DNA of 64,000 nt from Thermophilibacter immobilis. GTDB lineage: Bacteria > Actinomycetota > Coriobacteriia > Coriobacteriales > Atopobiaceae. Every line of letters starts with the position of its first letter. The first letter of the stretch is position 1. The notes beneath the pieces were generated by a model. It searched no databases. It was not told where the DNA came from and saw nothing but the letters and a program-made list of their open reading frames with translations. Location: contig NZ_CP063767.1 of assembly GCF_015277515.1 (NCBI RefSeq), positions 992,001 through 1,056,000 on the forward strand, read 5' to 3'. Position numbers and translations under genes: made by a program. Positions 4,639-10,072 of the stretch are shown here, one piece after another.

Positions 4639-6162
4639 ATGGCAACGTTCTTCGAGGAGGAGTCCCACACCTTTTCTGAGTACCTACTCGTTCCCGGATA
4701 TTCCTCGGCGGACAACGTTGCCGCCAACGTGTCGCTGAAGACGCCGCTCGTGCGCTTTGCACGTGGCGAGGAGCCTCAGATCACCCTCAACGTCCCCATG
4801 GTCTCGGCCATCATGCAGTCGGTCTCCGGACCCAAGCTCGCCGTAGCCCTGGCCCAGCAGGGCGGCCTCTCATTCATCTACGGCTCGCAGAGCATTGCCG
4901 ACGAGGCGGCCATGGTCCGCGAGGTCAAGAGCTACAAGGCCGGCTTCGTGGTCTCCGACTCCACGCTCACCCCCGAGATGACCCTCGACGACGTCGTGGA
5001 GCTGCTCGGCCGCACGGGCCACTCCACGATGCCCGTCACCGAGGACGGGACCCCCCACGGCAGGCTCTGCGGCATCGTGACCTCACGTGACTACCGGCTC
5101 TCCCGCGATCCCCGCGACCGCAGGGTCCGCGAGTTCATGACGCCCTTCGACAAGCTCGTCGTGGCCGATGACGCGACCTCGCTCAAGGCCGCCAACGACC
5201 TCATCTGGGACAAGAAGCTCAACGCCCTGCCCATCGTCGGCGCTGGCCGACGCCTCGTCGCGCTCGTCTTCCGCAAGGACTACGACTCACACAAGTCCCA
5301 GCCCAACGAGCTTCTCGACCAGCACAAGCGCTACCTCGTGGGCGCGGGCATCAACACCCGCGACTACGCCGAGCGCGTCTCCGCGCTCGTGGAAGCCGGT
5401 GCGGACGTGCTCTGCATCGACTCGTCCGAGGGCTACTCCGAGTGGCAGAGGCGCACCCTCGCCTGGGTCCGCGCGCGCTACGGGACCTCCATGCGCGTGG
5501 GGGCCGGCAACGTGGTCGACGCAGAGGGCTTCCGCTTCCTGGCCGACAGCGGAGCCGACTTCGTGAAGGTGGGCATCGGGGGCGGCTCGATCTGCATCAC
5601 CCGCGAGCAGAAGGGCATCGGCCGCGGCCAGGCCTCCGCGCTCATAGACGTCTGCCGCGCGCGCGACGAATACTTCGACGAGACCGGCACCTACGTGCCC
5701 GTCTGCTCAGACGGGGGCATCGTCTACGACTATCACATGACGCTCGCCCTGGCCATGGGGGCCGACTTCATGATGCTCGGGCGCTACTTCGCGCGCTTCG
5801 ACGAGAGCCCCACCAACCGCGTGAGCGTCAACGGCCAGTACATGAAGGAGTACTGGGGCGAGGGCTCCGCGCGCGCCCGCAACTGGCAGCGCTACGACCT
5901 GGGCGGCGACAAGAAGTCCCTCTCCTTCGTGGAGGGCGTCGACTCCTACGTGCCCTACGCCGGCCCCCTCAAGGAGGGTGTCGAGGGGTCTCTGCTCAAG
6001 GTCAAGTCCACGATGTGCAACTGCGGTGCGCTTGACCTGCCCGAGCTGCGCGAGAAGGCCAAGATCACGCTTGTCTCGTCCACCTCGCTCGTGGAGGGCG
6101 GCGCCCACGACGTCGTGCTCAAGGACGCCAACCAGCAGGTGAGCATCAATTTCCGCTCGTAG
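4639..6162 (+). CDS. guaB: Inosine-5'-monophosphate dehydrogenase
   Basis: Oxidises IMP to XMP with NAD+, the committed step of GMP synthesis. The 507-residue protein is a TIM barrel interrupted by a CBS-domain pair (about residues 110-230, with blocks [11 protein letters not shown] and LNALPIVG). The catalytic loop reads [10 protein letters not shown] with Cys at about residue 319, and the IMP phosphate site includes SDGGI. The loop differs from the usual GPGSICTTR, and the strand before it reads [10 protein letters not shown], a version seen in a divergent IMPDH branch; the CBS pair and length exclude GMP reductase. It is a single-gene unit with its own extended -10 promoter and a terminator directly after it. 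Confidence 0.92.
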
Positions 6163-9095: not shown

Positions 9096-9188
9096 TTGCG
9101 ACCGATTCGGCGGAAGTGAGCGCTCGGCGCACCTAAATCTCGGGAAGTGAGCGTCTCGGCACGCTCACTTCCGCCGAATCAGTCGCAA
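9096..9188. repeat. Long inverted-repeat element C after leuS
   Basis: Two 27-bp arms at 9096-9122 and 9162-9188 are reverse complements with one difference. The shared arm core is GATTCGGCGGAAGTGAGCG. The loop of 39 bases holds a further partial copy of the arm (GGAAGTGAGCG near 9143). The single mismatch becomes a G-U pair if the element is transcribed from the minus strand. It begins 38 bases past the leuS stop. It has no T tract, so it is not a simple terminator. The rest of the 9058-9343 gap has no gene I can support. Confidence 0.7.
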
Positions 9189-9343
9189 CGCAGCCGCACA
9201 GCGCACGAGCGACGCAGCGCCCCGCGCGCCTCTCGGAGCGCCTGGGGACTGCTCTGCGCCATAGACCTAATTCTTAAAGTTCCTGACACCGGCTTCGTTA
9301 CCATGGCAACCATCAAACTTGCAGTGGGACAAGGGGTGCCGCC

Positions 9344-10072
9344 ATGGTCGATCAGAGGTTCAGCTCGCCCGGGCCCGCGGACTTCGAGCGCCTTCTTGCG
9401 GACACAGGGCTATCGGAGCGCGAGGCCCAGGCGCTGCTCTCCGTCGTCTTGTCCCAGACGGCCGCCGAGGCAGCCGGGGCACTGGGGGTGAGCGCCTCCA
9501 CCATGGGCAGCTATCGGCAGCGCGGCTATGCCAAGCTGGGCGTCTCCACCCGCGCCGAGTTCATGAGGCTCCCTGAGGCTGAGACATGGGCGTCGACCCT
9601 CGCGGCATTCGACGTGCCGGCCAAGAAGCCCGTCGTTCCCGTTGAGTCCAATCCTGCGTCACCGCAATGCAGGCCTCCCATGAGCTTTCCGTGTCTGTTC
9701 GTTGCCTGTCTGCTCTGCAGCACGCTTGTCATCTTTACGGGAATCGTGGCAAAGATTCTGCTGCCACGACATGATGCGTATTCCGTGCAGCCCCATGGAG
9801 CGATTGCATCCGAGTACGGTGACGTGCCCAACGTCGTGGGCATGCGCGCCGACAGCGCTGCCTCAGCGTTGGCGAGCGCTGGCTTCTGTCCCGAGTTCGA
9901 GCCGCGCGCGGGCGATGCTGCGTCGGGGACCATCCTCGAGGTTGGTCCGGTGGGGGACCTGAGCGACCTCGCAGGTGGCATCCCCTCGATCTCATGGGGG
10001 GATGGCTGCACCGCCGGCTACAACGAGCGCGGCGGCTGGGATGCCTATGTGGAGCTCGTCGTTTTCGTGTAA
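9344..10072 (+). CDS. LuxR-type HTH / transmembrane / PASTA-like protein
   Basis: Candidate membrane-bound transcription regulator. The 242-residue protein begins with a LuxR/GerE helix-turn-helix at about residues 22-75 (LSEREAQALL, then ALGVSASTMGSYRQ and KLGVSTR). A proline-rich linker (91-112) leads to one hydrophobic segment at about 115-140, then an extracytoplasmic part that opens with VPNVVGM and continues SAASALASAGF, the pattern of a PASTA domain (160 onward). The end is divergent from PASTA and holds a second Cys (222) that could bond to Cys182. There is no signal peptide and no kinase or penicillin-binding domain. Start ATG 9344 has AAGGGG upstream. It stands alone between an inverted-repeat element and the rimP promoter. 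Target genes and ligand are unknown. Confidence 0.75.
   Translation: MVDQRFSSPGPADFERLLADTGLSEREAQALLSVVLSQTAAEAAGALGVSASTMGSYRQRGYAKLGVSTRAEFMRLPEAETWASTLAAFDVPAKKPVVPVESNPASPQCRPPMSFPCLFVACLLCSTLVIFTGIVAKILLPRHDAYSVQPHGAIASEYGDVPNVVGMRADSAASALASAGFCPEFEPRAGDAASGTILEVGPVGDLSDLAGGIPSISWGDGCTAGYNERGGWDAYVELVVFV

Follow-up and report, generated by a model that had tools for sequence, protein, structure and literature searches.

PASTA domains have been described in kinases and penicillin-binding proteins, and the membrane-tethered regulators ToxR and CadC carry an OmpR-type winged helix-turn-helix (HTH) together with other outer domains. In the kinase PknB, the PASTA domains bind muropeptides and lipid II (PMC3145798, PMC6428115), with the ligand site assigned to the linker that connects PASTA 3 to PASTA 4 (PMC6428115), and they served largely for localisation (PMC3145798). 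A lone terminal PASTA was insufficient in M. tuberculosis (PMC6428115) and, as cited in the same article, sufficient in StkP. The Coriobacteriia have DadR, HcdR and CadR, membrane LuxR proteins that activate transcription, and DadR without its transmembrane (TM) part is inactive (PMC9734109; Dong et al. 2022); 83 membrane LuxR proteins are present in E. lenta DSM 2243 (PMC9734109). PASTA is not mentioned in the text of PMC9734109, and no description of a LuxR or other HTH regulator containing PASTA was found in the literature searched, which has subscription journals mostly outside its coverage.

The window analysed here (64,000 nucleotides from the 2.16 Mb, single-contig genome of Thermophilibacter immobilis) contains a gene with this combination. 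Its 242-aa product (9344..10072, + strand; delimited by the ORF, Pfam and full-length homologues) joins a LuxR-type HTH through one TM helix to a PASTA domain, and is probably a membrane-tethered one-component transcription regulator with an outer PASTA sensing the state, or a fragment, of the cell envelope. The predicted layout resembles three groups of described proteins. With DadR, HcdR and CadR it shares the bacterial class, the fusion of a LuxR/GerE HTH with a membrane part and the one-component, kinase-free layout; with PknB, PrkC and StkP, a cytoplasmic output domain followed by one TM helix and outer PASTA; and with ToxR and CadC, an N-terminal cytoplasmic DNA-binding domain, one TM helix and an outer sensor.

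Domain order and membrane topology

All features of the gene lie on the + strand, beginning with a probable ribosome-binding site (AAGGGG, 9331..9336) upstream of the ATG. The initial annotation had described a LuxR/GerE HTH at residues 22-75 and one TM helix, and both are borne out. The HTH (9407..9568) is delimited by alignment and by a match to GerE (PF00196) at residues 23-75 with an E-value of 2e-5 and 24.5 bits, above the Pfam cut-off of 23.5, and its residues R58, Q59, R60 and K64 are invariant in the alignment throughout the short-form family (one HTH, one TM, one PASTA). NCBIfam matches were weak throughout and fell on LuxR-type regulators, at their DNA-binding ends. Pfam matched no kinase domain in the protein, and no OmpR-type winged HTH (PF00486) at E-values up to 10; an Rfam scan across the locus and a plasmid search likewise returned no match. 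A variable linker with low pLDDT and the highest dN/dS (residues 76-114, 9569..9685) leads to a single strong TM helix of 21 residues (115-135, 9686..9748; mean hydropathy 2.4), which the whole-protein model places at 118-139.

The C-terminal part (residues 153-242, 9800..10069), initially annotated as PASTA-like, has held up as such in structure comparison. The 242-aa protein matches PASTA (PF03793) at residues 161-201 with an E-value of 2.7e-4 and 21.3 bits, just below the cut-off of 23.2, and the C-terminal piece alone reaches 22.4 bits against the same cut-off, which two-HTH homologues of the sister group clear, down to 7e-23. Among nine short-form members, GerE was matched in all nine and PASTA in five, and both domains were matched in 6/6 members of alignment A1. 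Because the whole-protein model (six sequences) was confident in the HTH and PASTA core only, residues 146-242 were modelled alone (AlphaFold2, 16 homologues), giving a PASTA fold with a pLDDT of 76 and a pTM of 0.70. When this model was compared with the PDB using Foldseek, ranks 1-19 were all PASTA-containing kinases and penicillin-binding proteins, none of them significant by E-value alone (best 0.067); the PDB searched by sequence alone gave nothing significant. VIA-align aligned 56 residues of the model with a PknB PASTA at an rmsd of 1.6 Å, the top 21 rows being PASTA-containing, and the Z of 7.1 is middling and by itself weak support for the fold. Combined with a Pfam match at that position and with the homologues that pass the cut-off, it identifies the C-terminal domain, as modelled, as PASTA.

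Two features set this domain apart from canonical PASTA. The first is that some 20-25 residues (about 205-230) are inserted before the last strand; this stretch is the poorly predicted part of the PASTA model and in the short forms aligns as W..G...GYN..G.W.A. The second is a pair of cysteines, located by alignment and position, Cys182 (9887..9889) and Cys222 (10007..10009), as the putative halves of a disulfide.

The PASTA domain was proposed to lie outside the cell, and two independent observations support this placement. In the relatives, the 20 residues preceding the helix contain 2-8 Lys/Arg and those following it 0-2, and homologues of the same PASTA set are exported behind Tat/lipobox-type signals. 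The window protein has 2 Lys/Arg before the helix and 2 after, charges that leave its topology unfixed, and an outer PASTA is thus predicted for it from its relatives.

Loci, relatives and selection

The regulator gene lies alone in the interval from leuS to rimP, which is one of two fixed loci of the short form in the Atopobiaceae, the other being rpsT-lepA. Orthologues occur after leuS (L084, L086, L088, L092) or before rimP (L083), and a paralogue occupies rpsT-lepA (L085, L087, L089, L090, L091). C-terminal frameshifts are found in the copies of L087 and L092, and in another genus a broken copy directly after leuS (L123, 3680-3943) keeps the HTH and then runs into a stop, with no PASTA. 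The distance from leuS to rimP could be measured in 20 congeners, where the gene is missing and the gap is 183-792 bp, compared to 1382 bp in the window; the regulator gene is therefore dispensable. In a small tree, the sequence of the 242-aa protein falls between the two clades of the short form. For informative pairs (Nei-Gojobori), dN/dS was 0-0.18 for the HTH, 0.11-0.34 for the PASTA and 0.16-0.88 for the linker plus TM, values which indicate that both end domains are under purifying selection and that the linker is freer.

Both Cys182 and Cys222 are present in the window protein and the rpsT-lepA clade (L085, L087, L089-L091), and both are missing from the leuS clade of genera g34 and g28 (L083, L084, L086, L088); in L092 the first is absent and a frameshift lies ahead of the second. 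Joint presence and absence, although representing one or two evolutionary events and not many, is the expectation for a disulfide, and the initial suggestion of such a bond is probably correct.

It had been noted that the gene stands alone beside an inverted repeat, and while both the isolation and the repeat are real, the repeat is unrelated to the system. Its arms (9096-9122 and 9162-9188) are 96% complementary, and its core, GGAAGTGAGCG, is present 17 times in this genome, compared to 0 for the reversed control, and in 0-3 copies per genome in 30 congener genomes. The copies form degenerate clusters, mostly near 1.55-1.57 Mb (1.554-1.574 Mb; L080, L081). The element is a lineage-specific dispersed repeat and may be REP- or MITE-like. 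It was considered as an operator of the regulator and rejected because it is dispersed in the genome and absent from the relatives' loci, and a search upstream of the orthologues revealed no conserved operator.

Full-length short-form homologues with 43-49% identity to the 242-aa protein occur in eight further Atopobiaceae genomes, in genus g34 (G114, G116-G121) and in g28 (G087, with a frameshift near the end of its copy), so that the domain order first seen in the window recurs in other genera. Named relatives include Olsenella species, Tractidigestivibacter montrealensis and 'Jeddahella massiliensis'. A pattern scan of the genome contigs with alignment A3 returned ten named Atopobiaceae loci; scanning the contigs with the 242-aa protein as single query gave no match. 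Class- and phylum-wide profile searches, covering 396 genomes each in evenly drawn, overlapping sets, yielded no full-length match outside the Atopobiaceae, and divergent cases elsewhere are possible. Given these relatives, the fusion is, on sequence comparison, a real and conserved design in the family.

A sister group in the congeners consists of longer proteins in which a pair of GerE domains and one TM are combined with between one and three PASTA domains (three in G001, G007, G014, G021 and G029; fewer in G002 and G025). The same PASTA triplet is also found without an HTH, behind an N-terminal Tat/lipobox-type signal (MSTLSRRSFVGVLAAVAAACASGC...), in exported proteins at L046, L047 and L048 (dnaE-ruvCAB locus) and L094 (6088-7056). 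The L094 gene lies in the interval from ricT to an 850-aa gene, as do the long-form regulators of L035, L040, L041 and L043, and is on the opposite strand. Before it (about 5400-6100) is a repetitive intergenic stretch in which translated frames contain repeating GGTPAGIPRH-like units. The exported proteins may act as partners of the sensor or as decoys for it. Two further two-HTH single-TM regulators (L007 and L010, with L036 close to L010) have outer parts with no Pfam match, which suggests a common HTH-TM chassis that takes differing outer domains, PASTA being the recurrent one. Tandem-GerE regulators with other outer parts were observed at L007, L010, L036, L015 and L093, with a single TM or, in L015, several, and polytopic relatives with GerE-type HTHs are also present in this genus.

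The whole genome has just three GerE matches, compared to the 83 membrane LuxR proteins of E. lenta DSM 2243 (PMC9734109). Besides the regulator it encodes two PASTA proteins, one a PknB-type kinase that carries four PASTA domains and the other a 559-aa protein that carries three. Since the kinase is encoded in the same genome, the regulator is an addition to it and no replacement. The 559-aa protein (L003/L082, genome 107-113 kb) is a membrane protein with no kinase and a conserved C-terminal domain, and similar proteins occur in many congeners.

Possible signals and outputs

In the proposed mechanism, the LuxR/GerE HTH would bind DNA in the cytoplasm, as its homology to GerE suggests, one helix would cross the membrane, and the single divergent PASTA, probably held by the Cys182-Cys222 disulfide, would sense the state or a fragment of the envelope from outside. 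The putative ligand would most likely be peptidoglycan or lipid II, and its binding could alter dimerisation or membrane position and, through these, promoter binding by the paired HTHs, such that presumed target genes would respond with neither a kinase nor a response regulator. The reading favoured for this architecture is a putative wall sensor that would relay a peptidoglycan signal directly to DNA. The lone PASTA has no interdomain linker, where the ligand site of PknB was placed, and this counts against the mechanism, as do the even charges around the helix of the 242-aa protein, the negative operator search upstream of the orthologues and the absence of the gene from leuS-rimP in the 20 congeners. 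A more specific version is offered tentatively, as a possibility somewhat short of an even chance: muropeptide or lipid II on the PASTA would directly switch the LuxR-type DNA-binding domain, and this kinase-free peptidoglycan sensor would have diversified in the Atopobiaceae into forms that have one or two HTHs and up to three PASTA domains, and into the exported PASTA proteins. If true, this would constitute a PASTA signalling route not described in the literature searched.

The same topology and DNA-binding output could also be combined with a PASTA that senses no peptidoglycan and acts as a wall anchor, or as a binder of another molecule such as a small metabolite or a protein partner (e.g., the exported PASTA proteins or PknB). 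The divergence of the outer domain, with its insertion and two cysteines, would suit such an input, and the sister HTH-HTH-TM chassis of L007 and L010, carrying outer parts with no PASTA match, points to a generic output with a changing input. Furthermore, DadR-type relatives respond to metabolites (PMC9734109), and the largely localising role of the PknB PASTA domains (PMC3145798) would be consistent with an anchor. However, PASTA recurs as the outer domain in this family, in up to three copies, and the best established role of PASTA is wall contact; a non-peptidoglycan input is accordingly judged unlikely.

An HTH-TM-outer-domain layout is also that of RodZ, and a structural role of this kind, with the HTH as an inner-face protein-binding module, the PASTA following the wall and no DNA bound, would agree with a gene that has no dedicated neighbours to regulate. 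Yet the HTH of RodZ is of the XRE type, whereas GerE is matched here. The invariant basic residues in the recognition-helix region, the two tandem GerE domains of the sister group and the function of the characterised membrane LuxR proteins of this class as transcription activators (PMC9734109) further make a RodZ-like protein very improbable. Decay into a non-functional remnant of a longer HTH-HTH-TM-PASTA regulator, which would account for a protein shorter than the tandem-HTH forms and for the broken copies (a stop after the HTH in L123, C-terminal frameshifts in L087 and L092), is scarcely credible for a short form that stays full length across genera and in two loci, whose HTH and PASTA both have low dN/dS and whose ORF in the window is intact.

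Comparison with described regulators and kinases

The fusion of HTH, TM helix and PASTA is best read as a new sensor variant of the membrane-bound one-component LuxR regulators of the Coriobacteriia (DadR type). The chassis and the PASTA domain are each already known, and it is their combination that is unusual: with one helix connecting a PASTA fold to a transcription-factor domain, a signal at the cell surface could reach genes without a kinase. Should it sense wall material, the protein would connect the wall to genes by a very simple switch and could be tested as a counterpart to the PknB of that cell; HTH-TM with an exchangeable outer domain would also be a natural chassis for Coriobacteriia sensors.

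DadR-type proteins have an N-terminal sensor of 10-12 TM helices and a C-terminal HTH, whereas the 242-aa protein has an N-terminal HTH, one helix and a predicted outer PASTA. The PASTA Ser/Thr kinases combine a kinase output with three to four PASTA domains, in contrast to the predicted DNA-binding output and one divergent PASTA of the 242-aa protein. Compared to ToxR and CadC, the protein has GerE and PASTA in place of the winged HTH and their outer domains.
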